A stretch of DNA of 39,798 nucleotides from a virus: the IMG/VR virus record IMGVR_UViG_3300025162_000012, positions 1-39,798 of that record; one strand, written 5' to 3'. This document shows, piece by piece, positions 4,902 through 39,798 of this stretch. A program made the translations under genes and the position numbers. The notes beneath the pieces are model-generated. The model was not told the DNA's origin and ran no database searches. It saw only the letters and a program-made list of their open reading frames with translations. Position 1 is the stretch's first letter, and the number at the start of each line of letters is the position of its first letter.

Positions 4902-4911
4902 GGAGGATACA

Positions 4912-5694: not shown

Positions 5695-5706
5695 AAGGAG
5701 AAAAAA

Positions 5707-6441
5707 ATGGCAAACAACAACGATTTTATCAATAGCGGAACACAAATAAGCGGAACGGATATCAGTATCCAGCCGGGAGCGTCCGGTGGTACTCGATTTC
5801 TAAGCACGTTCCTCGGTGGCCTCATGAATAGCGGAGGCGGCCAGGAATCGAAGATGAAGAAAGAGAAAGACAAATTGACGTATTATACTGAGCTCCGTCA
5901 AGCCGGGTACTCGGCGGACGAGGCCTCGAAACGCGTCAATAAACAATTCACCGGCGGTTTCATGAGTAAGATCCTCGGAAAAACAAACGCCGGTTTCCAG
6001 CCTCCAGCTTCCGGGACGGACACTCTGAACGCTAAAGCGGAGGAATTGAAAGCGAGCGCGAAGTTAAAAGGCACTCAAGCCGATTGGTTTGCCCGGAGAT
6101 CCGGGAGCGATGCTTCCGGAGGAAAGTCCGGGACAGGCGATACGGAGCGGATCAAATCCCTCCAGACGATGCTCCAGAAAACCCAGGATGATATTGACGC
6201 GGCGGTAACGGCGAACAAACCGCAAGACGGGCTCCGTAAACGCTTAGACAAATATCAGAAAGCTTATGATAAGCTAGTGGGCGCGGACGATAGCGCTTCG
6301 GTACAAGGAAATGAATCCCCGACAGGAGGGTATGTCCCAGGCCAGACTCAAGTAGGGCAGACGTTTAAACATTCAAACGGAAAAACCTATAAAGTCGTCG
6401 GGATCTCAGATCCAAATGATCCGGACGTAGAAGAGGCATAA
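5707..6441 (+). CDS. Internal virion protein candidate
   Basis: A 244-aa protein with an AAGGAG site. The N-terminal 45 residues are Ser/Gly-rich with a short hydrophobic RFLSTFLGGLM segment; the middle is helical and basic (KMKKEKDKLTYYTELRQAG), then a coiled coil about 150-190. The C-terminus carries GQTFKHSNGKTYKVVGI followed by DPNDPDVEE, a short beta motif that I have seen at the ends of phage internal proteins. It sits between an ejection-protein candidate and the giant protein, so co-packaging is likely. Confidence 0.45.
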   Translation: MANNNDFINSGTQISGTDISIQPGASGGTRFLSTFLGGLMNSGGGQESKMKKEKDKLTYYTELRQAGYSADEASKRVNKQFTGGFMSKILGKTNAGFQPPASGTDTLNAKAEELKASAKLKGTQADWFARRSGSDASGGKSGTGDTERIKSLQTMLQKTQDDIDAAVTANKPQDGLRKRLDKYQKAYDKLVGADDSASVQGNESPTGGYVPGQTQVGQTFKHSNGKTYKVVGISDPNDPDVEEA

Positions 6442-9400: not shown

Positions 9401-12400
9401 TGCTCCGGGCCTTGATTGACGGGAAGGCCGCGAAAGTGAAACCTAACATCGATAAGATGATCGAAGAACAGGAGAAAAAAGATGGAGAAATCGCAGAACA
9501 AGCCAAGCTCGAAGGAGCCAATGAAGCAACCCTCGAGGAAGCTCGTCGAATTAGTGAAAGAGAGCGACAGGATGAAGGAGACGATAGCGTGGGCGCAGGG
9601 GGAGCAGAAGCCGCCGCTCTAAGAGACTTCCAGACCGGGGACATTGTTTACGATCACTATAACGGGAAGATTCTCTCTTATCTTGGGAAGGATCCAAAAA
9701 CGGGAAACCTTGTTTTCCGAGATCGGGATGGAGCCCAAAAGAAGGTCGTATATAAGGCCAGCGAGCCAGGACGAAATCACTTTTTATCGAAGCAGCCCAA
9801 ACAGTTATATTTCACGTTTGACGGGAAGAAATATCGCCTTGAAACAACATCAAGCATTTTATCCTCAAGAGAAGAAGCCGATAAGATTGAGGCTGAAACT
9901 GGTAAATTCGGATACTCGATGGAAGTGAAAAGAGAAAATGATGATCTCATGTGGGATATCGTAAATCAAGAACGAGTAAACCCTGAAGGAGAAAAGATCG
10001 GATCCGGAGATCTTGCTTTTAAAGGGATCGAAGATGCAAAGGCCTATCTTAAAAAACAAAAGATAGACTCTTCTCCGGTCGTGGTGGATACAAGAGAGCC
10101 GGACGAAATTCCTTCCGGAGATCTTATCGAGACAGACGCCTCGCGGATCCAGGAGCTCAAGAACAGTATCGCCGAAGCGGAAATGATCGTGAAATCCGGG
10201 AAGACAGCCGCCGGGCGTAAAATGGAAAAAGGCGAGATCGACGCGGTTCAAAGAACGATCGACAAGATGAAAGCGAAGCTCCCGTCCTACAAGAAAGCGG
10301 AATTTGGAGGGCCGAAGACTCTCAAAGAACAAAAGACGGAAGCGACGCCACTCGAGCAAGCGGCGGCGGACGAGAAGCAAGGATCTCTTTTCGGGAACGA
10401 AAAAGGATCCGTAAACGTCGCCATGATCCCAGGCGTCGAGGAAGTAGCGGCCGGGCTCGCGGAAGGATCCGAAGCGATCATTAAGACTCTCGCTCCCATG
10501 TCGGCCAGCCCGGAAGCTAGGATCGCGGCAGAGGTATTGAGAGAGCAGACCGGGAAGCTCGCGCAAGCGACGGATCGGACGGAAAAGGCGCTCGAGAACG
10601 CTCAAAAGTTATTTGACAGGCTTGGGAAAAATGCGCTCCCGTTTATTTATGATATGGAGGCCGGCCGTCCACAGCCAACTCCAGAGCTCCAGCAGATCGC
10701 GGATATCATGCGGAAGATGCTGGATGATGAGCGGAAGAACGTCCAGGCTCTCGGCAAGGGAAAACTAGAGCATTTCATCGATAATTATTTCCCTCACATT
10801 TGGGAGGATCCGAAGAAAGCGAAGGACGTGATCCGAAAAATGTTCGGGAAAAGACCGCTCCAGGGATCCAAGTCGTTCCTCAAGGAAAGAACGATCGAGA
10901 GCATTGAAGCCGGCATCAAAAAAGGATTGATCCCTGCCTCCTATAACCCGGTGGATCTGGTAATGACAAAGCTCTACGAAATGCGGAAATACGTCATGGC
11001 GCATAAGGTGCTCCAGGCGTACAAAGCGATGGGCCTCGCGAAGTTCGTGGCGGTCGGGATGAAACCGCCGGAGGGATGGGTGAAGGTAGACGACTCGATC
11101 TCGACCGTTTATGGGAGTCCGATGATCCAGATCCAAGAGGCGTTTGACAAACAGATTTACTCCGCTTACGAAAAGATCATGAATGATCTCGGGATCGATT
11201 ACAAGACGAAGGCGAAGATCGGAGGGAAACGGTGGGGATATTACCGGCCATTTGGTGATGAGATTGTTAGGAAGTTTGGAGGGGATCTCGGGATGATCGG
11301 TCCTCATGAGATCGGGCATTGGATCGACGAGCATTATGGCCTCCAGGCGGTTATGTTCGGAGATAAACGGTTAATGTCTCCCATGATCGCGGAAAACATG
11401 ATCAAGAAAGCTGAACGCGAAGGAAGGACGTCGGACGCTCTCAAGATGAGGGAACAAGTTACCCGGAACAATGAGATCCGGGCTCTGGCGGACGCTTCCG
11501 GTACGGCGAAATATTACCGGCGCAAGGGAACGGAAAAAATGGCGTTTATGATCGAGACGTTTCAACACGCTCCCGATCAGTTCAAACAGCTCGCCCCGGA
11601 GACGTACAAGTTTTTGACGAATTGGATGAAATTCGGACCGGCGGCGGACAAACTAAAACCGCTCTTTGATATTAAGCCATCCATTGAGCTCGGAGTCGGA
11701 GCTTCCGAAGTCTATGCCGGTGGCCTGGTGATCTCCGGATATAACTATATGCCAGGGGATGCCGCCAGGATCATAAACAATTATCTCTCTCCTGGGCTAA
11801 GAAAAAACTTTTTCTATAATCTCTACCGGAACGCCGGAAACTCGCTTAATCAGTTCCAGCTCGGGCTCTCCGCGTTCCATGCCGGGTTTACCACGATTGA
11901 CGTGATGATCTCGAAGATGGCGCTCGGATTTAATCAGATGATGGACGGGAAATGGGCGGACGCTTTTCAATCTCTCGTCGCGATCCCGGCAAATCCGATC
12001 TCAAATATCATCCGGGGAGATAAACTCTTAAAGGCATGGTACGGGAAGCCTACGGATGCGAAGACGGCAGCGATCGCGGAGGCGATGGCCTCCGCCGGTG
12101 GCCGGGCGAGGATGGACAAATTTTATCTCGTCGAGGCGCACAAGCAGCTAAAGAAAAATATCGCTCAAGGGAAACTCGTAAACGCTTTTTTTAGTATGGT
12201 CCTTTCTCTTGTCGAGAAGGCGTCCATGCCGATCATGAATGAGCTCGTCCCCCGGCAGAAGCTCGGAGTCTTCTTCGATATCATGGATTATGAGATCAAA
12301 AAGAATCCAAAACTCACTCACGAAGAGCTCCGACGTATGGCTCAAAAGGCATGGGACTCCGTTGATAACCGTCTCGGCCAGCTCGTTTATGACAATTTGT

Positions 12401-13482
12401 TTTGGGATAAGACGGTCAAGGATCTGCTCATGGGATCCGTCCGATCCCTGGGATGGAATCTCGGGACGTTGCGCGAAGTTGGCGGCGGTGCGATCGATTT
12501 CGCGAGGATGCTTAACAATATCCGCCAGGGAAAGAAACCGGAAAACTCGTACCGGACCGGATATCTTCTCGCTCTCCCGATCCTTGTGGGGATCCTGGGG
12601 GCGATCTATCAATATCTTAGGACCGGCCAGGCGCCATCAGAGCTCAAGGATTATTATTTCCCAAAGAACGGGAAGGTAGACCGGAACGGGGATCCGCAGC
12701 GCGTATCTCTCCCGACCTACATGAAAGACATTTATCACTATACAAAACATCCTTTTCGGACCGTGATGAATAAACTCGCGCCTCAGAACGCGATGATCTT
12801 TCAAATGCTCGAGAATAAGGATTATTACGGAACGGAGATCCGGAACGTGGACGATCCGGCCTTGAAGCAGCTCGCACAAGAAGGAAAGTTTTTTCTTGAG
12901 CAGCTTCTTCCATTCGGGATCCGCCAGGCCGGAAGAACGATCGAAACCTTATCTCCCATGAAGGCAAAAGAGGGGAAATTCCCGATCGAAGAAGTGATGA
13001 AAGAGCCCTTGAGCATCGCGGAGCCGTTCGTCGGAGTCGTCCCGGCTCCTTATGATATCAATATGACGAAGGCCGAGGAACGAGCTTATGAGATCATGAG
13101 AGGAAAGATCCCAATGGGCGCCAGGACCGAGGAGCAAGCGGATCGCTCGAAGTTTAAAGCGGATCTTCGGAATTATTATTTTACGAAAAAAGACTCGATG
13201 CCTCTTTCACAAGCGACAAGCAAGCGAATGATAACTTCGAAAGAGAAAGAGAATCTCATGAAGTCTTCAAAAGAGGATCCATTGATCCGGATGATGAAAA
13301 GTTTTACGGTTCGCGAGGTTACGGCCGTCTATAAACAAGCGACTCCGGAGGAGCGGAAGAAGATCATCCCGGTCCTAAAGAAGAAGCTCGAGAACAAACT
13401 CAAGAAGCCGCTCGCGGCGGAAGAAGAAAAGCAAGATCAAGATCTTTACAAGAAATATTTCGGACATAGGTTCTATGTTTAA
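6442..13482 (+). CDS. Giant polyvalent internal virion protein with ART-like and zincin-like domains
   Basis: A 2346-aa protein with a GTG start directly after the upstream stop and GAAGAGG before it. Residues 1-200 are Lys/Gln-rich coil with KLS(E/Q) motifs. Hydrophobic helices occur near 215-240, 345-360 and 2038-2058. Residues about 620-808 resemble the ADP-ribosyltransferase fold of phage polyvalent proteins: H641 in HGTG, Y661/S663 in IYLSL, a YDAVVFKNVG segment and D794-Q795 before IVILNPDKV. Residues 1622-1626 are HEIGH followed by WIDEH, a zinc metallopeptidase signature; E1678 (NEIRALAD) or E1698 (EKMAFMIE) could be the third ligand. The rest is helical and typical of a protein threaded out of the capsid. 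I infer ejection with the DNA and action on host proteins early in infection. Domain calls are by motif only. Confidence 0.7.
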   Translation: MKLSEAAIDIPDGSGGSDPQLLSQDQLSAQKQKSGPMKLSQIGAPRAPAKLSQITNPDNSLEDQITARKKQLEDQQKAAYQKEAEIQQQAQQKKAIEDDPKNWSSERIQKETPKPRTLQEAAQKDAAVSMRKEQEKEISDKILGKNQPQIGPPTPGSRPASPKEEEKARVESEASYLKKHPGEQDVFEAFQLGLVPYSTQGQEHIKVMEKAHPIAKSVGQMTGMALSMLATAPIEGVVQAQPTIRALRAVSSPALKEVARYGARAIPRAIHFAASGFTKSVLDNSMLLAQGGRSIAEAVKDIAQTTADMAVFALPQSLANPLARIPATGAEQYISSLMQGHDQISSLASGVLGVALGLLDRSNFSVEEKALAFRKTIGEIHQKIVEKTAAESEVLGKQATVIMGDSSRESLRSRIKNLADEGRIVKVDPEEIDKIIDQVLNVWGRELSVAKTQKRGPRLLDLPEMLGAQKPGYFTKGTLQQEASELAQKETPATSEAPAEKALPQDGEVAKTPIVEGKMDYERVISEEGGTFLGVTKGFKKKDGTTTADLIQFRAPSGTTLAIPSDKITPDLIRSKIADAEKLKKSQAKDEEVAKKEEKKPVKLSEVEKPQGVRAKHWTTAEGKAALERGEKFDFTKKPIHGTGSLGGEEKTGRFAGDRIYLSLADDIWGKTSTREGEDKIVEVGGVEHLKELNKAGAETFYDYDNQKWMAKTGAKVVKKNLHPVEYEIDAGAKIKVIDNLDSYRAAQNEVSQYAGDPGFWDALAKKYDAVVFKNVGKIAREHDHKFFKALLADQIVILNPDKVRVVSGQVEKSTPKPDYSVTSRTSEDFEINPSKMKDLKKGYVSIKFGKKVYAAKIGSVVNGVTIYNHADLAEAKKIDFHEAIPGFIDKKGKFVDQYPPAIEVKVRGPIKYNETKAAEQGDLRTLVKIYGGLDKTASIFKNFAPEEVRKLFPLFRKKGRAPDGLLKELKGQYPDLFKDYESDHEMLRALIDGKAAKVKPNIDKMIEEQEKKDGEIAEQAKLEGANEATLEEARRISERERQDEGDDSVGAGGAEAAALRDFQTGDIVYDHYNGKILSYLGKDPKTGNLVFRDRDGAQKKVVYKASEPGRNHFLSKQPKQLYFTFDGKKYRLETTSSILSSREEADKIEAETGKFGYSMEVKRENDDLMWDIVNQERVNPEGEKIGSGDLAFKGIEDAKAYLKKQKIDSSPVVVDTREPDEIPSGDLIETDASRIQELKNSIAEAEMIVKSGKTAAGRKMEKGEIDAVQRTIDKMKAKLPSYKKAEFGGPKTLKEQKTEATPLEQAAADEKQGSLFGNEKGSVNVAMIPGVEEVAAGLAEGSEAIIKTLAPMSASPEARIAAEVLREQTGKLAQATDRTEKALENAQKLFDRLGKNALPFIYDMEAGRPQPTPELQQIADIMRKMLDDERKNVQALGKGKLEHFIDNYFPHIWEDPKKAKDVIRKMFGKRPLQGSKSFLKERTIESIEAGIKKGLIPASYNPVDLVMTKLYEMRKYVMAHKVLQAYKAMGLAKFVAVGMKPPEGWVKVDDSISTVYGSPMIQIQEAFDKQIYSAYEKIMNDLGIDYKTKAKIGGKRWGYYRPFGDEIVRKFGGDLGMIGPHEIGHWIDEHYGLQAVMFGDKRLMSPMIAENMIKKAEREGRTSDALKMREQVTRNNEIRALADASGTAKYYRRKGTEKMAFMIETFQHAPDQFKQLAPETYKFLTNWMKFGPAADKLKPLFDIKPSIELGVGASEVYAGGLVISGYNYMPGDAARIINNYLSPGLRKNFFYNLYRNAGNSLNQFQLGLSAFHAGFTTIDVMISKMALGFNQMMDGKWADAFQSLVAIPANPISNIIRGDKLLKAWYGKPTDAKTAAIAEAMASAGGRARMDKFYLVEAHKQLKKNIAQGKLVNAFFSMVLSLVEKASMPIMNELVPRQKLGVFFDIMDYEIKKNPKLTHEELRRMAQKAWDSVDNRLGQLVYDNLFWDKTVKDLLMGSVRSLGWNLGTLREVGGGAIDFARMLNNIRQGKKPENSYRTGYLLALPILVGILGAIYQYLRTGQAPSELKDYYFPKNGKVDRNGDPQRVSLPTYMKDIYHYTKHPFRTVMNKLAPQNAMIFQMLENKDYYGTEIRNVDDPALKQLAQEGKFFLEQLLPFGIRQAGRTIETLSPMKAKEGKFPIEEVMKEPLSIAEPFVGVVPAPYDINMTKAEERAYEIMRGKIPMGARTEEQADRSKFKADLRNYYFTKKDSMPLSQATSKRMITSKEKENLMKSSKEDPLIRMMKSFTVREVTAVYKQATPEERKKIIPVLKKKLENKLKKPLAAEEEKQDQDLYKKYFGHRFYV

Positions 13483-16877: not shown

Positions 16878-17339
16878 ATGAAAAAAATCCTTCGGAGGAT
16901 AAAAACTTTTTGTGCCGGTGGTGGCGTTGGCTCACGCCAGGAGGCTCTCCGCCTCACTCCGAAGGTCGTCGCCATCGGCCTCTTTTTTCTTGTGTGCTCT
17001 CCCGCGTTTGCCCTCGAGGGAAAAGCATCATGGTATTCCTCAAAAGACGCTTGCAAATATAACCCAACGAAAGGATGCCCGACCGCTTCGGGTAAATCAA
17101 TTTATGTGCTCGAAAAAGAAAAGATCATGTTCGCGGCTTCGTGGTCGTACCCCCTTGGGACGAAAGTGCGTGTTACAAATCGAGAAAATTCTCGATCCAT
17201 CGTGGTCGAAATTTGGGATCGCGGACCGGCGAAACGACTTGCTCGAGTTATTGATCTTGGAAAAGAGGCTTTTTCAAAAATTGCACCGTTAAAATCGGGG
17301 GTGATAAATGTCTCGGCCGAAACATTATCAAGTTTATGA
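16878..17339 (+). CDS. RlpA-like secreted double-psi beta-barrel protein
   Basis: A 153-aa protein. Residues 28-45 form a signal peptide core (PKVVAIGLFFLVCSPAFA) with likely cleavage before LEG. The mature part follows the RlpA family: GKASWYS, a Cys59-Cys67 pair, TASGK, PLGTKVRVTN, EIWDRGPAKR with D114, and RVIDLGKEAFSKIA. RlpA-type enzymes are lytic transglycosylases that cut peptidoglycan strands. At the usual active-site histidine before the LPFGT-like segment, this protein has SW (88-89). It could be the lysis enzyme or aid entry. The 29 residues before the signal core are unusually long, and the DNA there folds into a three-way junction (see separate entry). No ribosome site precedes ATG 16878, so the start is uncertain. 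Confidence 0.65.
   Translation: MKKILRRIKTFCAGGGVGSRQEALRLTPKVVAIGLFFLVCSPAFALEGKASWYSSKDACKYNPTKGCPTASGKSIYVLEKEKIMFAASWSYPLGTKVRVTNRENSRSIVVEIWDRGPAKRLARVIDLGKEAFSKIAPLKSGVINVSAETLSSL
16889..16965 (+). other. Candidate three-way-junction RNA structure
   Basis: A perfect 9-bp outer stem (CCTTCGGAG 16889-16897 with CTCCGAAGG 16957-16965) encloses two adjacent hairpins: TGGCGT/ACGCCA (16922-16927 with 16934-16939) and GAGGC/GCCTC (16941-16945 with 16951-16955). Almost no unpaired bases separate the stems on the 3' side; a run of six T follows at about 16983. This lies inside the first codons of the RlpA-like gene. It may be a regulatory leader or an inserted palindromic element. No known riboswitch class is recognised. 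Confidence 0.4.
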
Positions 17340-29242: not shown

Positions 29243-30265
29243 ATGGCAAACACAACGAGTATTGCAAGTTTAAGAGCAAAACTCTGGTACAAGGAGCTAT
29301 TCGCCGACGTCCAGACGATGCTTTTCATGAAACGGTTTATGGGCGAAGGCGCCAATAACCCGATTCAAGTTGTCCGGGATCTCCAGAAGCAAGCCGGGAA
29401 TTACATCGAGTTCGGTCTTTCGACAAAGCTCTCCGGGGATGGTGTTACCGGGGATGATGAGCTCGAAGGGAACGAGGAAGAGATTCTCACCTATCAGAAC
29501 GAGCTAGCAATCGATCAGCTCCGTCATGCGGTTCGTCTCAAAGGCCGTATGGATGAGAAGAAGGTGGCGTACAAGATGCGGAAAGACGCCAAGGAAAAAC
29601 TCAAGATCTGGTGGGCGGAACGTATCGACCGCGAAATCCTCTGGAAACTGAGCGGCGCGACGGCGAAGACTTTCGCGAACACGCCGACCGCTCCTTCCTC
29701 CAATCGATCGATATGGGCCGGGAACGCCGGGGCCGACAATTCCTTGACCGCTTCAATGATCATGGATACGAAGTGCCTCGACGCCGCGAAGGAGCTCGCT
29801 TTAACCAGCACTCCGAAAGTCCGTCCGATCAAGATGGAGAACAGCCAGGAAACGGGCGAGTCGAAATACATCTGTATCATGCACCCGTATCAATTCTCCG
29901 CTCTCCGCAAGGATCCGGTGTATGCTCAGATCCAGCGTGAAGCGAATGTGCGCGGAAGTTCAAATCCGCTCATGAGCGGCGCCGTTGCCGAATACAACGG
30001 GATCATCATCTACCAGCATGAGCTGGCGTACACCTTCACGAACACCGGTACCGTAGCTGTTGGCCGCGCTCTTTTGATGGGCCAGCAAGCCGGTATTTTT
30101 GGCGTTGGCGAAGATGAACGCTGGACCGAAGAAGAGAAGGATTATAAGAATAAGTGGGGAATCGCCGCTGGTCGTATTTTCGGCGTGATCAAACCCGTCT
30201 TCAATTCCGAAGACTACGGGATCATCACTATCGCAACGGCCGCAGCGAAAGCAACGACCGCCTAA
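29243..30265 (+). CDS. Major capsid protein (N4-gp56/DUF4043-like)
   Basis: A 340-aa protein. The N-terminus LWYKELFADVQTMLFMKRFMG, then IQVVRDLQKQAGNYIEFGLS, DELEGNEEEILTYQNELAID, and AERIDREILWKLSG fit the N4-gp56/DUF4043 capsid families. A peripheral EYNGIIIYQHELAYTFTN strand and a GVIKPVFNSEDYGIITI end are also typical. Copies form the icosahedral head. It is shorter than N4 gp56 (about 400 aa). A terminator-like hairpin follows. Confidence 0.85.
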   Translation: MANTTSIASLRAKLWYKELFADVQTMLFMKRFMGEGANNPIQVVRDLQKQAGNYIEFGLSTKLSGDGVTGDDELEGNEEEILTYQNELAIDQLRHAVRLKGRMDEKKVAYKMRKDAKEKLKIWWAERIDREILWKLSGATAKTFANTPTAPSSNRSIWAGNAGADNSLTASMIMDTKCLDAAKELALTSTPKVRPIKMENSQETGESKYICIMHPYQFSALRKDPVYAQIQREANVRGSSNPLMSGAVAEYNGIIIYQHELAYTFTNTGTVAVGRALLMGQQAGIFGVGEDERWTEEEKDYKNKWGIAAGRIFGVIKPVFNSEDYGIITIATAAAKATTA

Positions 30266-30709: not shown

Positions 30710-31693
30710 ATGACTATCAACAGATCAAATTCAATCGCGCAGATCCGATCAAAAGGGATCACGCAAGCGGATCTTCTGTATATCGTAAGCGCCATGACTA
30801 ACAGTTTCAATTTCGTTTGCTCGAAATTGGACGCGGAAGGTCTTGGCTATACGAATTACTGGAGTCTGTATTACATCGAGAATGAGATCGATGAAACCAA
30901 AGGACCGGACGATGTGAACGAACGGAACATCTACGGGGCCGGGTATTGGTGGGCGGATCTTTACACTCAGCTCCGAGCCTTGTTCGTAAACTTCAACGCT
31001 CTTTGCGAACATCTTGCGGCGGATACTACTGTAAACGGGACGACCGTTTACACCGCAAGGGAAATATCCACGACAGACAGCAAAGGAAGAGCGGTCGGGG
31101 AATACGGATCGCAGATCCAGCAAAACGGCCATACTCAAATGGCGCTCGTTGATTTTCTCGATCTTTGGATCGATATGTTCAACGCTGTATTGTATGAGCT
31201 GGATCACGATAGCGGCATAACCGGGACGGATTATCGTTCCGCGTTTGCTGTAACGGATATCATCGCAACCGTATCGAGCTCGAGCTCATCTTCATCGAGT
31301 TCAAGTTCGAGTAAGTCGTCCTCAAGCTCCTCGAGTTCAAGTTCAAGCTCCAGCTCTTCCTCAAGTTCCTCGAGCTCATCCAGTTCGAGTTCCTCTTCGA
31401 GCAAGAGTTCTTCAAGCAGCTCCTCTTCGTCGAGCAGCTCAAGCTCCAGCAGCTCAAAGAGTTCTTCTTCTTCGAGCAGTTCATCGAGTTCGAGCAGTTC
31501 TTCGTCTTCGAGCAGTTCCAGTTCTTCGAGCTCAAGCTCTTCGAGTTCGAGCTCCAGCAGCAGTTCCAGAAGCTCCTCAAGTTCTAGCGTGTCCAGCAGC
31601 TCATCCTCGAGTTCGAGCAATTCTTCGAGCTCCTCAAGCAGCTCTAGCAGCAGCTCAAGTTCTTCGAGCAGCTCGTCTAGCGCCAGCGCATAG
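30710..31693 (+). CDS. Virion protein with long poly-serine tail
   Basis: A 327-aa protein. Residues 1-188 are a folded, mostly helical domain with several Trp/Tyr (YTNYWSLYYIENEI, AGYWWADLYTQLRALF, LVDFLDLWIDMFNAVLYELD). Residues 189-327 are serine with about one Lys, Arg, Val or Asn every 10-30 residues, ending SASA. All six Ser codons are used, so selection is at the protein level. Between capsid-associated genes and before the sugar cassette, it could be a head fibre with a glycosylated stalk. No known family for the head domain. Confidence 0.7.
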   Translation: MTINRSNSIAQIRSKGITQADLLYIVSAMTNSFNFVCSKLDAEGLGYTNYWSLYYIENEIDETKGPDDVNERNIYGAGYWWADLYTQLRALFVNFNALCEHLAADTTVNGTTVYTAREISTTDSKGRAVGEYGSQIQQNGHTQMALVDFLDLWIDMFNAVLYELDHDSGITGTDYRSAFAVTDIIATVSSSSSSSSSSSSSKSSSSSSSSSSSSSSSSSSSSSSSSSSSSSKSSSSSSSSSSSSSSSSSKSSSSSSSSSSSSSSSSSSSSSSSSSSSSSSSSSSSSRSSSSSSVSSSSSSSSSNSSSSSSSSSSSSSSSSSSSSASA

Positions 31694-31701
31694 GAGGATC
31701 T

Positions 31702-32004
31702 ATGGCTACTAGACCGCAAGGAGTGAAGTTCTGGAAGGGAACCGGAGCCGGTGGGACAGTAATGACCGGGCTAGGAAATCTCTATTCGATCCAAATTTCC
31801 TATGCCGGAGTAACGGCCGGGAATAGGGTCGTGATCCTGGACGGAGTAAAACCGATCTATGAGTTCATCTTGGCAGAAGCGGCAAACTCGAATGTCTCCC
31901 CGGTGCTTCCATCGGTCGGGATCCAGTTTGAGACGTCTCTTGTTGTTTCTTATGCCGGAGCCGGTGAACTTGATATCTCGATCGGGTACGACGGGAACGG
32001 GTAA
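31702..32004 (+). CDS. Small beta-rich virion protein
   Basis: A 100-aa protein with AGGAGG six bases before ATG. Beta-rich (LGNLYSIQISYAGVTAGNRV, then FETSLVVSYAGAGELDISIGY), similar in style and C-terminal GY ending to the 99-aa protein at 30342. Both may be decoration or fibre-base proteins. No family recognised. Confidence 0.5.
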   Translation: MATRPQGVKFWKGTGAGGTVMTGLGNLYSIQISYAGVTAGNRVVILDGVKPIYEFILAEAANSNVSPVLPSVGIQFETSLVVSYAGAGELDISIGYDGNG

Positions 32005-32008
32005 CGCT

Positions 32009-32104
32009 ATGGCGAAGAAAAAGAAGAAAGGCAAAAAGGGAACGATGTCAAATCCTCTCGATGCTAAGTATCATTTCGCTAAGCTGGTCCGTCCTCCAAA
32101 GTAG
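32009..32104 (+). CDS. 31-aa basic peptide
   Basis: ATG 32009, four bases after the previous stop. The product begins MAKKKKKGKKGTMSNPLD and ends FAKLVRPPK. The very basic start suggests nucleic acid or membrane binding, perhaps packaged. A terminator-type hairpin follows, which supports a real end of operon here. Confidence 0.5.
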   Translation: MAKKKKKGKKGTMSNPLDAKYHFAKLVRPPK

Positions 32105-32115
32105 TTAATCGGGAT

Positions 32116-32142
32116 GGAGTACCTCACTTTGTGGGGTACTCC
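32116..32142 (+). terminator. Hairpin before the sugar cassette
   Basis: GGAGTACCTC (32116-32125) pairs with GGGGTACTCC (32133-32142), ten pairs with one G-U, seven-base loop. No T-run. It separates the structural genes from the modification genes and may set their relative mRNA level. Confidence 0.55.
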
Positions 32143-32179
32143 TCCCATAACCTCACACATATAAAAAGGGGTGAATGAA

Positions 32180-33808
32180 ATGGAACATGATCTGTTCAAA
32201 GCGAAGACGCTCGAAGACGGGATCCATAACACCGTCGGGAATTGTAACGGGATCCCGGCGCATGAACGCTGGGAAAAAGAAACTCCTGTCTTTGTCAGAG
32301 AAATACGCGAGCTTTATAATTCGCAGCCAGGGTTTACGATCCTGGACTACGGAACCGGCGTCGGAAGATTAGCAAAAGAGTTCATCAAACAGGATCCGAA
32401 CGTAACGGTTATTGGCCTGGACGCTTCCTCGGATCAGCTCAAGATCGCGAAGGAATACGTCAATGACAGCCGGTTTATTCCGGTCCTTCCTCACCAGCTT
32501 AATCAAAAGGTGGATCTTGTATACTGCATCTATTGTCTCCAGCACGTCCCCGGGATCGAGCTCAGAGATGTTCTATCTCGGATTCATACCTTTCTCAAGC
32601 CCGGCGGATTACTCGTATACTGCTCGAGCGATTACCGTATGGCTATACGCTTCGATGGCCAGGGATTCTTTGACGATCGTTTCCTGGGAGTGAATATCCG
32701 GGAAGAGATCTCCAGACTTTTCAAGGAGGAGAAGGATCTCTTTGAACGGACGACCGGACTCGAGCCCGTCGTCGAAAAAATGGTTTGGGGCGAGCTCCCT
32801 CATCCGGCAAAGGTTTACTCGAGGAGAGAGATCTCCGGACCTTTGTTTAATGCTCCGATTCCAAAGGAAGAAGCGGCGTCAGTTCCAGCGCTTCCTACCG
32901 GATACGCTCCAATCGCTCGAAGGCTTGTCCTCAGAAACCGACTCGCCCCAGGAGATATCCTTGTGATGAGCGTCGCGATCCGGGCTCTTTACAAAGCGCA
33001 TGGAGACAAGTTCATGATCGACGTGGAGACTCCATGCGACGATATCTTTTTAAATAATCCGTACCTCACGAAGTTCGATCACATCGGAGCAGACGTCCAA
33101 GTGATCGATATGCAATATCCGGAGGTCCATAAATCCGGCGCGAGCGGCCGTCATTTCACAGACGGACACCGAAAGTTTCTTGAACAGGTCCTAGACCTCG
33201 AGATCCCTCGCGTCGGGTTGCTTCCAGATATTTTCCTCACTCAAGACGAGAAGCTCTGGCCGTCTCCGGTCCTAAAGCATACCGGCCATGACGGGAAATA
33301 TTGGGTGATCAATGCCGGGACGAAATCGGATTACACTCTGAAACAATATCATCGATGGCAAGAAGTGGCGGATCTTTGGGCCAAGACTTTCCCGGGTATT
33401 CAGCTCGTTCAGATCGGACAGGCCGAACACAATCATAAACCATTGAGCGGCGCCATAGATCTACGAGGGAAAACTAGTACCCGGGAATTATTTAGAACGA
33501 TCCATCACGCGGAGGGAGTGTTGACGTGTGTAAGTTACCCGATGCACATCGCGGCCGCGCTCGAGAAACCTTGTGTGGTGGTAGCCGGTGGCCGGGAAGG
33601 AACGCGCTGGGAGCTTTACCCGTCTCATCGTTTCCTCTATACAAACGGGACAATGGATTGCGCTTTGTATGACGGCTGCTGGAAATCGAAGACGGAAGAT
33701 TGCTTGCATCTTGTGAATGGAAATCCTCTCTGCATGGATCTGATCCGTCCGGAGGATATCGTCCGGGCGGCGGAGTTATATTACAAGGGAGGGCTTCTTC
33801 ATGCCTAA
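32180..33808 (+). CDS. Methyltransferase-GT9 glycosyltransferase fusion
   Basis: A 542-aa two-domain protein. ATG 32180 is preferred because AGGGG lies ten bases upstream; GTG 32171 is adjacent to it. Residues about 1-220 are a class I SAM methyltransferase: motif I ILDYGTGVGRLAKEF (54-68), VTVIGLDASSDQLKIA and VDLVYCIYCLQHV. Residues about 245-542 are GT9-like (heptosyltransferase-type GT-B): RNRLAPGDILVMSVAIRAL, NPYLTKFDHIG, a CVSYPMHIAAALEKPCVVV segment and GGREGTRWELYP with conserved Cys (GCWKS). It would transfer and perhaps methylate a sugar. First gene of the cassette, coupled to the next by an 8-base overlap. Confidence 0.75.
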   Translation: MEHDLFKAKTLEDGIHNTVGNCNGIPAHERWEKETPVFVREIRELYNSQPGFTILDYGTGVGRLAKEFIKQDPNVTVIGLDASSDQLKIAKEYVNDSRFIPVLPHQLNQKVDLVYCIYCLQHVPGIELRDVLSRIHTFLKPGGLLVYCSSDYRMAIRFDGQGFFDDRFLGVNIREEISRLFKEEKDLFERTTGLEPVVEKMVWGELPHPAKVYSRREISGPLFNAPIPKEEAASVPALPTGYAPIARRLVLRNRLAPGDILVMSVAIRALYKAHGDKFMIDVETPCDDIFLNNPYLTKFDHIGADVQVIDMQYPEVHKSGASGRHFTDGHRKFLEQVLDLEIPRVGLLPDIFLTQDEKLWPSPVLKHTGHDGKYWVINAGTKSDYTLKQYHRWQEVADLWAKTFPGIQLVQIGQAEHNHKPLSGAIDLRGKTSTRELFRTIHHAEGVLTCVSYPMHIAAALEKPCVVVAGGREGTRWELYPSHRFLYTNGTMDCALYDGCWKSKTEDCLHLVNGNPLCMDLIRPEDIVRAAELYYKGGLLHA

Positions 33809-34451
33809 CGTACTCATGCAAGCGGTGATCTTTAACACGCTCCGGATCTTGAAGAGAGAAAACCCTGGGGATTGTTACTACGAGAATTATCTCGGGCATC
33901 TTCAACGGAACGGCGAGAATTTCTATGATCAGTATATGCTCGCCTGGGAGATCGGCTGCACGAAACACCCAGCCCGGATCCTGGAGATTGGGACCAGGAC
34001 CGGTCTTTCTCTTTGCCAGTTACTTAGCTCGTTCGTGGATCAATCGAAGATCGTGAAGGTGGTTTGCATCGATCCATTCGCGGATCCGTACACGTCGGCG
34101 GAGCTGGTGAAGAAAAACTTGAGAGCGTTGAATCTTCCGGTGGAGAAGGTCGAGTTTCTTGTCGGATATTCCCAGGACTTTCTTCCGAAGATGGTTTACC
34201 TGGACAAGGATCTATTTGATTACATTCTTGTCGATGGCGATCATTCCAAGAAAGCGGCTCGGGAGGATCTCGAGTCTGTTCATAATCTTGTGGCTCCTGG
34301 CGGAGTGATCGTGTTCGACGACGTTTCTGACGCTCCCGGAGAGTGCGCTCTGATCGATGTGTGGACTCAGTTCAAGGCGGAGCATGAGACGGATTACGAA
34401 TGGCATTTAAATATGTCCGGGAAGGGGGTCGCATGGGCGATCAGAAAATAA
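33801..34451 (+). CDS. Class I SAM methyltransferase (Methyltransf_24-like)
   Basis: A 216-aa protein with AAGGGAGGG before the ATG. Motif I ARILEIGTRTGLSLCQLL near 58-75, VVCIDPFADPY (motif II), DYILVDGDHSKKAAREDLES and VAPGGVIVFDDVSD. The VDGDH segment is typical of sugar O-methyltransferases of the Methyltransf_24/TylF type. The acceptor is unknown; the glycosyltransferases around it point to a glycan. Confidence 0.7.
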   Translation: MPNVLMQAVIFNTLRILKRENPGDCYYENYLGHLQRNGENFYDQYMLAWEIGCTKHPARILEIGTRTGLSLCQLLSSFVDQSKIVKVVCIDPFADPYTSAELVKKNLRALNLPVEKVEFLVGYSQDFLPKMVYLDKDLFDYILVDGDHSKKAAREDLESVHNLVAPGGVIVFDDVSDAPGECALIDVWTQFKAEHETDYEWHLNMSGKGVAWAIRK

Positions 34452-35005
34452 TCTATCCCGTCGGCGATAGCCACGCCTGGCATTGTTGGCTCAAGATCCC
34501 GGAGGCCTCGACCTACACCGTCGGGCCGATGACTCTTTATCATTTTGGGCTTTATAAACCGGTCGTTACCGATTTGATCCCGAAAGATAAGATCGTCGTG
34601 TTTTGTTGGGGAGAGATTGATTGTCGGTGCCATGTTTATATGCATCTCCCGTCGATTCCTTGTATCAATAATCTAGTGAAGAATTACCGGGAAGCGATCA
34701 AAGTCAATACGATCGGCCGGGATCCTGGGAAGGTTTGGGTCTATAACGTCGTCCCCCCGGCGAAGGAGCATCCTCTTGATAATCCAGGATTTCCTTTTCT
34801 TGGTACTGGAGAGGAGCGCCTGTCTTACGCTCAATACATGAATGAGACGCTATCAAGAATGTGCCATGTCGAGGGGTGGACGTTTGTGGACGTCTATAAA
34901 TTTTACTCGGATAAAGAAGGGTTCTTGATCCCAGGAATGTCGGACGATCAAGTTCACGTCTCGGATCCAAAACCTTTACAGGAGTTTGTCAATGCTCACA
35001 CATGA
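34433..35005 (+). CDS. SGNH-like hydrolase/acyl-modifying enzyme
   Basis: A 190-aa protein. ATG 34433 is chosen since GGGGGT lies five bases upstream and the open frame further up overlaps the previous gene. The N-terminus IIYPVGDSHAW has block I GDS with S13 as nucleophile; WGEIDCR resembles block III; DDQVHVS near the C-terminus supplies the Asp-x-x-His. SGNH enzymes remove or transfer acyl groups on glycans. Overlaps its neighbours by 19 and 14 bases. May edit the cassette's glycan. Confidence 0.6.
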   Translation: MGDQKIIYPVGDSHAWHCWLKIPEASTYTVGPMTLYHFGLYKPVVTDLIPKDKIVVFCWGEIDCRCHVYMHLPSIPCINNLVKNYREAIKVNTIGRDPGKVWVYNVVPPAKEHPLDNPGFPFLGTGEERLSYAQYMNETLSRMCHVEGWTFVDVYKFYSDKEGFLIPGMSDDQVHVSDPKPLQEFVNAHT

Positions 35006-35645
35006 GAGAGATATAGAATATTTCGGGGAATATCCGGCTCCGATCATGCAAGCGGTCCAGGAGCTTCATCACACGAATATCAATAGCACGATCTCTTTCT
35101 TTGGACCGATGATGTATTTCTTGCTCAGGGATATTGGCGCGGAGCAAGTGCTCGAGATCGGACACGCGGAAGGATACACCGCGCATTATCTTGCGAACGC
35201 GGTGAAAGACAACGCCACTCGCTTCGGGATGAAGGGGAATAAGTATTACGGGATCGATATCGTTCAGACGGAGAAAGTTCGGGATGCGCTTCTCGCTAAA
35301 AATCTCCCGGTCGATATCCGGAATCTGGACTCGATGAAACTCTCGAAGGATACCTTTCCCGATGTTCAGTTCGACGTGATATTTCAAGACGGATGCCATG
35401 ATACGGAGCACGTCCTCCAGGAGTTCAGAACGATGTGGCCGCAACTCAAAGGCGAAGGAAAAGGATACTGGATCGCTCATGACGTGTTCGGGCCTAGTGA
35501 GGACGGGATGAAGAAGATCAAGATCATGCTCGATGAGGGAGCCTACAGGGGTGAATACCTCCGCATTTTTTCTTGTTACGGTCTTATGATCATCCGGAAG
35601 ATGGACGGATGGGACGAGTCAAAACTTCATTGGGTGAATCCATGA
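34992..35645 (+). CDS. Class I SAM methyltransferase-like
   Basis: A 217-aa protein. ATG 34992 is seven bases after AGGAG; the TTG at 34986 is too close to the site. EQVLEIGHAEGYTAHYLANA is motif I, KYYGIDIVQTEKV motif II, and FDVIFQDGCHDTEHVLQEF with a following WIAHDVFG segment gives motifs IV and V. FQDG.H replaces VDGDH. Its stop overlaps the next start (ATGA). Confidence 0.65.
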   Translation: MLTHERDIEYFGEYPAPIMQAVQELHHTNINSTISFFGPMMYFLLRDIGAEQVLEIGHAEGYTAHYLANAVKDNATRFGMKGNKYYGIDIVQTEKVRDALLAKNLPVDIRNLDSMKLSKDTFPDVQFDVIFQDGCHDTEHVLQEFRTMWPQLKGEGKGYWIAHDVFGPSEDGMKKIKIMLDEGAYRGEYLRIFSCYGLMIIRKMDGWDESKLHWVNP

Positions 35646-36232
35646 ATTGCGAGGTTTGTAAAAGAGATCAAGGCCCGGACGGGACGGCTCCTCTAATTGT
35701 ATTGGGAAAAACGTATAATCTTTGTCCGTTCGATCAGCTCGAGATCGAGAGATTTATCCAGATGCGGAAGGCCGGGGAAGCGGTAAATATAAACTGGGGT
35801 GGCGGTAAACTTGCTCCTGGTTGCTGGGAGGGGATCCGAAAAATTATCCGGGAGAACGGGATCAAAGAGGTTTTAGAGTTCGGGGCCGGTCTTTCCAGCG
35901 AGTTATTCGTCAATGAAGGGCTCGGTCTGGTTAGTTTTGACGTTCTTGACTTTCATATCGCGATGCTTAAAAGATGCCTGGCTGGGAAAGCGGATCTTTA
36001 CGCTTACGAATACGGAGTCCCTCCTCCGGTGAAGGAGCTTTATCCAGGGAGGAAATGGGAGTTCGTGTTTGTGGACGGTCCTCAAGAGAGATCCAGGGAA
36101 GTACGGACCGCGATGGAAGTCTCGAGCAAATTCATTTATCTCCATGATCCCAACATGGGGGAAGAGTCCTTTTTTCCAAACGAGGAGTGGGAAGCCCTCG
36201 ATCTCAAACTCTTTAAAAAGAGAGGAACATAA
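35642..36232 (+). CDS. Zinc-binding methyltransferase-like protein
   Basis: A 196-aa protein, ATG 35642 overlapping the previous TGA. The start MNCEVCKRDQGPDG and NLCPFDQ suggests a C-x2-C...C metal site. Then EVLEFGAGLSSELF (motif I), KWEFVFVDGPQERSREV (motif IV) and KFIYLHDPN form a Rossmann methyltransferase-like core. It is paralogous in layout to its neighbours. Confidence 0.55.
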   Translation: MNCEVCKRDQGPDGTAPLIVLGKTYNLCPFDQLEIERFIQMRKAGEAVNINWGGGKLAPGCWEGIRKIIRENGIKEVLEFGAGLSSELFVNEGLGLVSFDVLDFHIAMLKRCLAGKADLYAYEYGVPPPVKELYPGRKWEFVFVDGPQERSREVRTAMEVSSKFIYLHDPNMGEESFFPNEEWEALDLKLFKKRGT

Positions 36233-36750
36233 TGGACGTTTTTAATCATCACACTCAAGTCATTGATTTACTTCAAAAGCATTTCGGAGATCAGAAGATC
36301 ACCGGGATCGAGATCGGAACGCAAGGCGGAGGACTCACGAAAGGGATCCTTTTGAATTGTCCGAACGTCTCAAAACTTTATACGGTGGATCCCTGGAATC
36401 ATCGGGAAGGGAATCTGTTCGAGGCCGGGCATCCCCAGGAAGAGCACGACACCGTTAAAGGGTGGGCGTATACGGCTTTGGCGGAGTACGGGGATCGCGT
36501 AGAGATCATGCCGATTACAAGCGACGAAGCATTTACGAAGATCCAGGGACCGGTGGATTTCGTATGGATCGACGGGGATCATACCGTCGAGGCCGTCGAA
36601 CGCGATATCTTAAACGGACTCAGAATGGTCGGGCCTGGTGGGATCCTAGGTGGCCACGATCACAATACTGTCCTTGAAGCGATTAAGAAGACGTTGACTT
36701 ATCGTACCGTTTTTGAAGGGGAAGACCAAACGTGGTGGGTGTTCCTGTGA
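36232..36750 (+). CDS. Class I SAM methyltransferase (Methyltransf_24-like)
   Basis: A 172-aa protein starting with the last base of the previous stop (TAATG). ITGIEIGTQGGGLTKGIL is motif I, KLYTVDPWNHREGN motif II, and DFVWIDGDHTVEAVERDI followed by VGPGGILGGHDH is the strongest Methyltransf_24 signature in the cassette. Likely methylates a sugar hydroxyl. Confidence 0.75.
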   Translation: MDVFNHHTQVIDLLQKHFGDQKITGIEIGTQGGGLTKGILLNCPNVSKLYTVDPWNHREGNLFEAGHPQEEHDTVKGWAYTALAEYGDRVEIMPITSDEAFTKIQGPVDFVWIDGDHTVEAVERDILNGLRMVGPGGILGGHDHNTVLEAIKKTLTYRTVFEGEDQTWWVFL

Positions 36751-37745
36751 AAAACTACGCGATCGTCGTCTCGGCTTGCAAGAAATATGTTCCAGAATTG
36801 ACAGCGCTTCTTAATTCTCTGGAGAGGATCGGGAACGTCCATGACGTTCATATCAACGGTTTCAATCTTCCTTTTGAGTTTGTGGCCCAGCTCGATAATC
36901 TTTCCTATTCTGTTTTCCATCATCCGATTTCTGAGGCGGACGCTAGAGAGTTCGGCGGAGAGTCGGAGATCCTATGCCGGAAACGGTACTGGTTCGCGGC
37001 GGAGTGGGGCCAGTTCTACGACTCGGTTTGTGTTCTTGACGCGGATATGATCGTCGTCCGAAACATGGACGCGTTCTTCCGGATAGCGGAGCATGGGACG
37101 ATCCTCGGTGTAACGCTCGAGCAAAAGACTACCTACGGAACGGACGAGCAAGGCCACGATCATCAGCGCTGTCTCGGGGAGCATATGGTCAAGACTCCGA
37201 CTTGGAACACAAAAGATATGTGCTGTACCCCGATGTTCATCAATGCAAAGACCTACGAATCGCAACTCAAGAAAGCCTGGCAGATCTTCACGGAAGGATA
37301 CCCGGTTAATAACTTCAAAGCTCCGGATCAGCAAGCGTTCAATATGATCCTGGTTGCGGAAGATCTCACGAAAAACGTGGTGCTGCTCCCGAATATGTGC
37401 TGGGTCGGATCAAACGAGAAGCTCCTAAAGCCTTACACCAGGGTCACGACTCAATCGGACGGACTTCTTTGGACCGAGAGCGGGGAGCCGATCTATATTT
37501 TTCATGGACGGTATTACACGAAAAAATGGCGGAATCAGCAGCTTCTTAATCGCCACGGATGCGCTCAAGGATATCTGAAAGCTACGGAATGTTGCGACGC
37601 GATCGCGGAAGGTGCGATGAATTGTCTCTACGAGTTTTTTAAAAAATGCCTGGAAGGTCCGATAGTCGTCGATACGACGATCGAGTATACGACTGACGGG
37701 CTCCCGGATCACACCTACGCCGATCTCGGAAAAGAGGTTGTATGA
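36747..37745 (+). CDS. GT-A glycosyltransferase (GT8-like)
   Basis: A 332-aa protein. GTG 36747 overlaps the previous stop (GTGA) and follows GGTGGG; GTG 36732 is an alternative adding five residues. KNYAIVVSACKKYVPELTALLNSL is a GT-A beta-alpha start, and SVCVLDADMIVVRNMD carries the metal-binding D-x-D (98-100). CCTPMFINAKTYES and DQQAFNMI match the acceptor-side part of GT8-type enzymes. It would add one sugar from a nucleotide donor. Coupled to the next gene by ATGA. Confidence 0.75.
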   Translation: MKNYAIVVSACKKYVPELTALLNSLERIGNVHDVHINGFNLPFEFVAQLDNLSYSVFHHPISEADAREFGGESEILCRKRYWFAAEWGQFYDSVCVLDADMIVVRNMDAFFRIAEHGTILGVTLEQKTTYGTDEQGHDHQRCLGEHMVKTPTWNTKDMCCTPMFINAKTYESQLKKAWQIFTEGYPVNNFKAPDQQAFNMILVAEDLTKNVVLLPNMCWVGSNEKLLKPYTRVTTQSDGLLWTESGEPIYIFHGRYYTKKWRNQQLLNRHGCAQGYLKATECCDAIAEGAMNCLYEFFKKCLEGPIVVDTTIEYTTDGLPDHTYADLGKEVV

Positions 37746-38554
37746 GTTTTTTGACGGAAGCTAAGAACGGAATGAAGCTCGCGGAACACCTGGACACAGG
37801 GAAATTCAAGAGCGTATTGATCCCGTTTTGGCATGGAGTGGGGGACGTTGTGATGGTGCTGCCTATTGTGAAGCGTCTTAGAGAATTATATCCGGCTATC
37901 GAGTTCAAACTCGGGCTCTGCAAAGGACTTGATCAGGAAACCTTTGTCCCGGACGCCATACTTCTCGAAGGAGACTGGCGAGAGAAGGCGCTCACTTTAG
38001 GATTCGATCTTGTGTTCCCGGTGAATTTCCCGATTGAAAGGATGGATGATCTCACGAAGACGAAAGCGGAGGTTTGTTGCGAGGAAGAGATCGGGATCCC
38101 GCCGGTGTGTGGTCACTTGCCGTTATCGGGGAAGCGTCTGGTCGGCGTTTGTTTTCAATGCACGTCGGTCCCATGGGTAGCGAACGCGGACGAGGAAGTA
38201 GCTCAAAAGATCTGGAACGATATCAAGGAGGCCGGCTATGTTCCTATTGAAACTCAGTTTATTCATTGTTTCGCTAATCCTGACAATAAGATTTTTTCCT
38301 TTATTGATGCTCATCTTCGCGGTTGCCCCGCGAGGATTGAAACGCTCATGGCTATTCTTGGGCGGTGCGATTCTTTTGTTGGGACTGTCGGTGGCAACTT
38401 TCATATGGCTTTGTCCATCCTTGGTCCAGATCGCGTTATGCTGCTTGAAAAAGACCTGAAGCGAGAGCATTTCACGAAAGAGAAGATCGCGACGGCAAAT
38501 TTGAAAGATTATCAAGGTGAAGTAAAAAAATGGCTCATTGAGGTTTTAAAATAA
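37742..38554 (+). CDS. GT9-like glycosyltransferase
   Basis: A 270-aa protein. SVLIPFWHGVGDVVMVLPIVKRL (23-45) is the GT9 N-terminal loop; GRCDSFVGTVGGNFHMALSI and RVMLLEK form the donor-binding end. It is shorter than typical heptosyltransferases (about 320-350 aa). Its stop overlaps the adhesin ATG (TAATG), so adhesin translation is coupled to it. Codon use from about 38240 to 38420 changes (ATT, CTT, GGT instead of ATC, CTC, GGG), where another membrane ORF is hidden in the +1 frame. Confidence 0.7.
   Translation: MSFLTEAKNGMKLAEHLDTGKFKSVLIPFWHGVGDVVMVLPIVKRLRELYPAIEFKLGLCKGLDQETFVPDAILLEGDWREKALTLGFDLVFPVNFPIERMDDLTKTKAEVCCEEEIGIPPVCGHLPLSGKRLVGVCFQCTSVPWVANADEEVAQKIWNDIKEAGYVPIETQFIHCFANPDNKIFSFIDAHLRGCPARIETLMAILGRCDSFVGTVGGNFHMALSILGPDRVMLLEKDLKREHFTKEKIATANLKDYQGEVKKWLIEVLK
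38238..38459 (+). CDS. Overprinted two-helix membrane ORF inside the GT9-like gene
   Basis: A 73-aa frame within the GT9-like gene (+1 frame). AAGGAGG (38225-38231) is six bases before its ATG. It reads MFLLKLSLFIVSLILTIRFF, a Leu/Phe-rich helix, RGLKRSWLF basic turn, a second helix (LGGAILLLGLSVATFIWL), and a Lys end. Size and topology match a holin. The host gene's codon use is unusual exactly here, which supports dual coding, but a chance frame cannot be excluded. Confidence 0.35.
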   Translation: MFLLKLSLFIVSLILTIRFFPLLMLIFAVAPRGLKRSWLFLGGAILLLGLSVATFIWLCPSLVQIALCCLKKT

Positions 38555-39798
38555 TGGGTGAAGCAACTGGCGGGACAATAACTCACGCGAACGGGAAAAC
38601 GATCCACACGTTTAAACTTGGGGATTCCGGGACAAACTTTGTCGTTCCTGCCGGAGGATTAACCGTTCGTTCTCTTGTTGTCGCAGGAGGAGGCGGTGGT
38701 GGATCTTATTATATTGGTTCTGGAGGAGGAGGTGGTGGAGTGGTTTCCACGGCCTCAACCGCAGTTGCCGAAGGAAGTTATGCCGTAACGGTTGGTGATG
38801 GAGGTTCTGGTGGATCTCCTCAAAATGCAGGATCGAAAGGTAGCGACTCAAAAATAAACTTTACCTCGGCAATTACTGCAACTGGAGGAGGATACGGAGC
38901 TTGCGCTAGTGTCGCTCCGGGTAACGGAGGGTGTGGAGGCGGTGCGGTATACACCGCTGCAACCACTGTTGGAACTGGTAGTCAAGGATATAACGGTGGC
39001 CAAGCTTATGCCGGTGGAGGAGGCTATGGAGCAGGTGGAGGCGGTGGAGCAGGAGGTCTTGGTGGAAATGGTTCCTCTACGAATGGGGGAACCGGTGGAG
39101 CCGGATTTGCTTCTAACATTTCTACTGGTGGAGGCTCTTCCGTAAACTATGCAGGAGGAGGTGGCGGTGCTGCTTATGCTGCAACGGCAGGAACTGGTAC
39201 GGATGGAGGTGGAAACGGAGCTAGCACTTCTCCTGCAAATGCAACGGCAGGTGCGTCCGATACTGGTGGAGGCGGTGGAGGTTCAGAAAGAAGCGGTACT
39301 GGAATAGGCGGCAAGGGAGGCTCCGGGATTGTAATTATTTCGTATGATACTCCATCCAGCTCTTCAAGCTCGAGTAGCAGTTCAAGTTCGTCCTCCTCTT
39401 CTTCAAAATCTTCAAGCAGCTCCAGTTCAAGTAGTTCGTCCCTGAGTTCATCGTCATCGTCGAGTTCGAAAAGTTCATCGAGTTCATCGTCATCGTCGAG
39501 TTCGAAAAGTTCATCGAGTTCATCGTCATCGTCATCGTCGAGTTCGAAAAGTTCATCGAGTTCCAGTTCAAGCTCGAGTTTGTCATCCTCAAGTTCCAGC
39601 AGTTCCTCAAGCCGAAGCTCGAGTTCAAGTTCGAGCAGCAGTTCCTTGTCCTCATCTTCGAGTTCTTCGTCAAGTTCATCGAGTTCCAGTTCAAGCTCGA
39701 GTTTGTCATCCTCAAGTTCCAGCAGTTCCTCAAGCCGAAGCTCGAGTTCAAGTTCGAGCAGCAGTTCCTTGTCCTCATCTTCGAGTTCTTCGTCAAGT
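38554..39798 (+). CDS. Gly-rich/poly-Ser adhesin, N-terminal part (continues at 2)
   Basis: Residues 1-267 are a Gly-rich domain: GKTIHTFKLGDSGTNFVVP start, repeated GGGGGG runs alternating with short strands, and a GKGGSGIVIISY end. This is the pattern of phage Gly-rich tail-fibre domains (Gly_rich_2-like), thought to form a polyglycine II bundle whose loops contact the receptor. From residue 268 it is serine with single Lys, Leu, Arg and Phe residues. Joined with positions 2-697 the protein is about 616 aa, with about 296 serine-tract residues and a 53-aa tail. Start overlaps the GT9-like stop. Length of the Ser tract may be affected by assembly. Confidence 0.75.
   Translation, partial: MGEATGGTITHANGKTIHTFKLGDSGTNFVVPAGGLTVRSLVVAGGGGGGSYYIGSGGGGGGVVSTASTAVAEGSYAVTVGDGGSGGSPQNAGSKGSDSKINFTSAITATGGGYGACASVAPGNGGCGGGAVYTAATTVGTGSQGYNGGQAYAGGGGYGAGGGGGAGGLGGNGSSTNGGTGGAGFASNISTGGGSSVNYAGGGGGAAYAATAGTGTDGGGNGASTSPANATAGASDTGGGGGGSERSGTGIGGKGGSGIVIISYDTPSSSSSSSSSSSSSSSSSKSSSSSSSSSSSLSSSSSSSSKSSSSSSSSSSSKSSSSSSSSSSSSSKSSSSSSSSSSLSSSSSSSSSSRSSSSSSSSSSLSSSSSSSSSSSSSSSSSSLSSSSSSSSSSRSSSSSSSSSSLSSSSSSSSS
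39444..39557 (+). repeat. 36-bp tandem repeat in the serine tract
   Basis: Units begin at 39444, 39480 and 39516; the first two are identical 36-bp copies and the third has a 6-bp TCATCG insertion. Each encodes Ser with one Lys, so the Lys recurs every 12-14 residues. Confidence 0.85.
39552..39797 (+). repeat. 123-bp tandem repeat at right end
   Basis: Two 41-codon units starting at 39552 and 39675, essentially identical, and the second runs into the terminal 91-base overlap. The window breaks inside this repeat. Confidence 0.85.
39708..39798. repeat. Terminal direct repeat (copy at right end)
   Basis: Identical to 1-91; supports a closed or circularly permuted molecule of about 39,707 bp. 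Confidence 0.9.

Follow-up and report, generated by a model that had tools for sequence, protein, structure and literature searches.

The virus record IMGVR_UViG_3300025162_000012 (IMG/VR) is 39,798 bases long, its two ends overlap by 91 bases, and its full length is the window analyzed here. Its gene content (terminase, portal, capsid, Erf/RecE-like recombination genes and tail-region structural proteins) points to a podovirus-like phage. In the late structural region, between the capsid and tail-region genes, lies a cassette of glycosyltransferase (GT) and methyltransferase genes, accompanied by three genes, named gA, gB and gC, whose products contain long serine tracts (poly-Ser). The genes of this region described below are all on the plus strand.

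The gene gA (30710-31693) is found just after the capsid genes, downstream of that for the major capsid protein (29243-30265; phrog_334, E 6e-79), and encodes a 188 amino acid (aa) helical N-terminal domain with a C-terminal poly-Ser tail. The tail (aa 189-327) holds 131 serines and ends in SASA. The first part of gB (38554-39798) codes for a Gly-rich fibre-type domain (PF21722, phrog_2295) and the start of its tract. Its remainder (92-697) was joined across the circular closure after bases 1-91, which duplicate the end of the record, had been removed; it continues the tract and finishes with C-terminal W-x-x-R-x-E repeats. The closed protein has 616 aa with the tract at aa 268-563. The record ends fall inside a perfect 123-bp repeat of gB, of which two perfect copies lie within 39549-39798, and the true length of gB is therefore uncertain by units of 41 aa. 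The sibling contig L070 also breaks inside this repeat. The short poly-Ser protein gC (678-962, with the ATG at 708 as the likelier start) is followed directly by a virion structural protein (971-1660; phrog_2941, E 5e-5). Tract lengths of 139, 296 and 67 residues for gA, gB and gC, as given in the original prediction, are exact, the second requiring circular closure.

Nine open reading frames (ORFs) separate gA from gB, namely a 100-aa ORF (31702-32004) that is conserved in relatives and has no PHROG match, and eight cassette genes for cytoplasm-type proteins. The first of these encodes a fusion (MT-GT9) of an S-adenosylmethionine methyltransferase (PF13489, 4e-13) with a GT9 domain (32171-33808), the latter passing the PF01075 cut-off of 22 bits with 27.2 bits. 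Three clear methyltransferases match PF13578: one at 33801-34451, with weaker matches to the TylF and RMNT_CmcI sugar O-methyltransferases, one at 34986-35645, which is kept in other cassettes, and one at 36232-36750. Among them are an SGNH/GDSL-like protein with a GDSH block (34400-35005; PF13472, E 3e-4) and a methyltransferase-like protein (35573-36232) that has the motif VLEFGAGLSS and no Pfam or PHROG match. The cassette closes with a GT8-like enzyme of retaining GT-A type (36732-37745) and a GT9-like enzyme (37742-38554) whose stop touches the gB start; the latter has no Pfam match, and its profile A3 weakly matches PDB 3tov, a GT9 protein, at E 0.004. The three GT, five methyltransferase-like and one SGNH-like domains originally proposed were thus recovered, with Pfam identifying one GT9 and four methyltransferases (starting at 32171, 33801, 34986 and 36232), the GT8-like and SGNH-like domains scoring below cut-off, and the fifth methyltransferase recognized by motif only. 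In the GT8-like family LDADM is invariant across 12 relatives, and 4 of 12 members match PF01501 at E<=0.01. An AlphaFold2 model of this protein (pLDDT 80, pTM 0.85) matches the GT6/GT8 retaining GT-A enzymes GTA/GTB, glycogenin and LARGE1 at TM 0.4-0.5; the model predicts a retaining GT-A fold and says nothing on substrate.

The serine tracts are real, and chance is excluded. Those of the window use all six serine codons, with a codon entropy of 2.49-2.52 of 2.58 bits (2.0-2.55 across cassette phages), and adjacent identical codons are depleted both in gB (0.09 observed versus 0.155 expected) and in three relatives (0.04-0.12 versus 0.22-0.26). An origin of the tracts as an artefact of repeat slippage was rejected on these grounds. 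TCN and AGY codons do not interconvert by one synonymous step, so their mixture points to selection on serine itself. Over 20 cassette loci, serine accounts for 9,094 of 9,883 tract residues, and the 789 others are mainly Phe, Leu, Ile and Arg, with Thr found 8 times and Pro once; the highest number reached by a single cassette-phage ORF is 848 tract serines. Use of all six codons, avoidance of adjacent repeats and near exclusion of Thr together argue for selection at the protein level. Avoidance of Thr was rejected as a hallmark of the cassette, since most poly-Ser phages lacking it avoid Thr too. Hydrophobic spacers stand at set distances within tracts, as with Ile every 9 residues (L009), Phe every 15 or 12 (L011) and Leu every 10 or 15 (L026). 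Such fixed periods, seen in L009, L011, L014, L026 and L027 (9, 12/15/18 and 10/15 residues), differ from phage to phage.

Homologues of the gA N-terminal domain, at 26-73% identity, have all kept a poly-Ser tail. The predicted gA model has a pLDDT of 74, and a fold search with it against BFVD gave no match. A constant tail is combined with heads that vary between lineages and include Gly-rich, LamG and F5/8C galactose-binding domains. C-terminal to the tracts, two conserved end-caps occur: gB relatives have the W-x-x-R-x-E repeats, and a different group has ASSLPxKVEFKDxTYxYKF.

The survey of co-occurrence suggested in the original prediction was carried out by scanning IMG/VR with GT8 and GT9 alignments and clustering the GT9 matches at 90% identity. 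Of the resulting 34 clusters, 27 have a Ser-rich ORF adjoining the cassette, 4 have none and 3 are cut by contig ends, leaving 31 evaluable lineages, in which a cassette without a serine tract is the exception (4/31, all distant). At a cutoff of at least 30 serines per 40 residues a tract was found with the cassette in 26/31 lineages, while random viral stretches gave 0/120 and those with a sugar-epimerase motif 0/110 (p about 1e-23 to 1e-24). With at least 26 per 40 the counts were 27/31, 1/120 and 2/110. Control stretches were scored with the same thresholds; they average approximately 9 kb compared with 17 kb for cassette stretches, a length gap that cannot account for the difference. The epimerase control was chosen by SDR motif pattern, the epimerase alignment A7 having given only three relatives. 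Proximity is also close, with the poly-Ser ORF being the next gene after the last GT in 14/24 lineages and starting 100 nt or less from its stop, often overlapping it, in 13/24. The pairing of cassette and poly-Ser is not due to chance. Serine tracts of another composition were also met: L215, L216 and L217 have Ser/Cys-rich tracts (SSSCSSSF type) adjoining distant GT9 cassettes in place of near-pure serine, and a 3,680-aa ORF with 1,464 serines at L169:2387-13429 (G021, the same contig as L045), directly before a GT9/GT8 cassette, also holds Cys in its tracts.

When 24 divergent loci were compared all against all, GT9 (in 24), GT8 (in 23) and methyltransferases (in 22) were the only near-universal genes, and capsid or terminase families were common to at most 6 of the 24. 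Because these enzymes alone are shared by phages with unrelated capsids and terminases, the module is exchanged between such phages as a unit and keeps its poly-Ser partner. In the cassette regions of 13 loci, methyltransferases prevail among the 128 proteins, which also include epimerases, LicD, cytidylyltransferases and radical SAM proteins. Cassettes other than that of the window thereby gain sugar-nucleotide genes, NAD-dependent dehydratases among them. The L196 products include a NeuB-family synthase and, like it below the NCBIfam equivalog cut-offs, a PseF-like cytidylyltransferase, so that sugars of nonulosonate type are likely for this cassette. The same L196 cassette (3021-8193) brings together the NeuB and PseF-like genes with those for a B12 radical SAM protein, a class IV aminotransferase and a group I intron-type endonuclease. 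In L165 two poly-Ser proteins, both with a Gly-rich head, are preceded by a different cassette (epimerase, methyltransferase, radical SAM).

The pairing is maintained in phages unrelated to each other, so the enzymes probably put sugars on the serine stalks, and we consider it probable that the cassette is a phage-encoded, horizontally mobile pathway for O-glycosylation of poly-Ser stalks. In such a pathway the GT8-like/GT9-like pair, helped by the MT-GT9 fusion, would build short sugar chains on serine hydroxyls in the cytoplasm of the infected cell, before assembly. The acceptors would be the long poly-Ser tails of fibre or decoration proteins from the same operon, and the methyltransferases may cap or vary the sugars, as may the epimerases, LicD, radical SAM and nonulosonate enzymes of relatives. 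Glycosylated serine stretches would form extended, hydrophilic, mucin-like stalks bearing sugar-binding or other heads, and the sugar coat could shield the particle. The analysis establishes the ORFs, their near-pure serine tracts, selection for serine in the protein, the enzyme families, the contact within the operon and a linkage conserved between unrelated phages. Serine as the acceptor, the order of transfer, the sugar and its linkage, the location in the virion and the role, shielding included, are inferred, as are the stiffness and protease resistance of the original prediction. The chances seem about even for a broader proposal, of a transferable 'phage mucin' system in which a GT8/GT9 pair is dedicated to homopolymeric serine with bulky hydrophobics at fixed spacing and is plugged onto unrelated heads; this would be one stalk technology with lineage-specific sugars across morphogenetic lineages.

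Several observations weigh against O-glycosylation of the stalks. Four GT9 lineages, all distant (L213, L220, L218/L219 and L221), are without a serine tract; the PF01501 match of the GT8-like protein (E 0.0023) is below cut-off; Pfam found no GT4, the GtfA/GtfB type of initiating enzyme, among the eight cassette proteins; and only gene position suggests a virion location for gA and gC. Poly-Ser is also common without the cassette, the converse case that the original prediction named as refuting if it were the rule. Among 31 poly-Ser records picked by serine-codon pattern alone, GT9 was present in two, one of them also with a GT8 homologue, and in three near-complete poly-Ser phages there was no glycosyltransferase among the 25 of 43 Pfam families listed. 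Such phages indicate that poly-Ser can function without this cassette. The core idea that the phage glycosylates its own stalks is backed by the linkage survey, but poly-Ser is not always tied to the cassette. In the same 31 records GT2 was present in 2, and PF13578 methyltransferases in 8 as compared with 1/18 controls. Phages of this kind may rely on enzymes of the host or on different ones, or their poly-Ser may stay bare.

An unlikely alternative is that the cassette remodels the host surface (lipopolysaccharide or capsule) against superinfection, with the poly-Ser tails being unmodified spacers that share the late region. GT9 is the family of the heptosyltransferases, O-antigen loci also typically have methyltransferase and nonulosonate genes, and the occurrence of poly-Ser apart from the cassette would fit as well. 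However, the window cassette has no flippase or bactoprenol GT; hydropathy of its proteins gave no evident transmembrane flippase, the highest value (1.84) belonging to GT9, a Rossmann-type protein, and membrane proteins are few among the 128 from the 13 relatives. The cassette moreover sits in the late structural region touching poly-Ser genes, and its linkage to them outlasts exchange of the remaining phage genome. The gtrABC seroconversion cassettes of temperate phages likewise bring phage-borne glycosyltransferases, yet the window cassette differs in lacking a GtrA flippase, a GtrB GT2/bactoprenol transferase and a membrane GtrC, and in being linked to poly-Ser genes.

It is also rather improbable that the substrates of the enzymes are the head domains (Gly-rich, lectin-like) or some other virion protein and that poly-Ser is a flexible, unmodified stalk. 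There is precedent for the latter in Saccharophagus and Teredinibacter, whose polysaccharide-degrading enzymes have long poly-Ser segments joined to carbohydrate-binding domains (PMC2386152, PMC2699552). Linkers of this Saccharophagus/Teredinibacter/Cellvibrio type join secreted enzyme domains, whereas the phage tracts are far longer and, with hundreds of serines nearly without Thr, Gly or Pro, are unlike ordinary linkers. We know of no coupling of such linkers to a glycosyltransferase cassette. Heads vary by lineage, and what constantly accompanies the cassette is the serine tract. T4-type hypermodification, with the bases of phage DNA as substrate, is a common role of phage glycosyltransferases (PMC12619734) but is very improbable here, as it leaves gene position and poly-Ser linkage unexplained and no base hydroxymethylase or equivalent was found among 30 window proteins scanned, a set leaving out small ORFs and a few others.

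The proposed glycosylation of poly-Ser stalks has its closest counterpart in mycobacteriophages, whose virion glycans are made by phage-encoded glycosyltransferases, and here too such enzymes are encoded beside structural genes. In mycobacteriophages the capsid and tail-tube subunits carry O-glycans at their C-termini, which act as a shield (Freeman et al. 2023, Cell Host Microbe, as cited in PMC12619734), so the original statement that no described phage system with this layout was known is too strong. In place of those C-termini, the candidate acceptor here is homopolymeric serine, tens to hundreds of residues long, on fibre- or decoration-type proteins; the enzymes form a multi-enzyme GT8/GT9/methyltransferase cassette, and the phages are known from metagenomes only. 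The module of the window probably works like mycobacteriophage virion glycosylation but differs in the type of acceptor, in its enzymes and in the phage groups that carry it. In serine-rich repeat adhesins of Gram-positive bacteria a Ser-rich acceptor adjoins a glycosyltransferase cluster that comprises GtfA/GtfB, GT8-type extenders and accessory Sec. Ser-rich ORFs are similarly encoded next to glycosyltransferases in the window, but the cassette is without a GT4 GtfA/GtfB-like enzyme, the tracts are near-pure serine with hydrophobic spacers and the context is that of phage structural genes. Literature searches on poly-Ser in phages gave no pertinent paper.

If stalk glycosylation is correct, virion glycosylation would no longer be confined to a few mycobacteriophages but extend to many phages of the environment, with an acceptor (poly-Ser) and a minimal testable enzyme pair named. 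The extreme poly-Ser proteins found in viral metagenomes would then have an explanation, mucin-like polymers with dense glycosylation could be made by a genetically encoded route, and GT8-GT9 followed by poly-Ser would serve as a marker for finding such phages.

A tblastn search of 50,697 isolate-phage records with the GT8-like, GT9-like and MT-GT9 proteins gave no match, and no isolate-phage relatives of gA or the gB head were found. With regard to the host, scanning genome contigs with the GT8 profile gave no relative, and the GT9 scan gave one good match, L342 (JAAKFN010000050.1), on a contig binned as Anoxychlamydiales. L342 carries a methyltransferase/GT8/GT9 cassette and then Ser-rich ORFs; it is likely a phage contig, and is possibly a hint of the host or a mis-binned phage. 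Elsewhere in the window, a 2,346-aa protein with no PHROG match (6442-13482) adjoins the tail-region genes, and a 153-aa secreted-type protein (16878-17339) matches the lipoprotein family phrog_7930 and is possibly RlpA-like and related to lysis.

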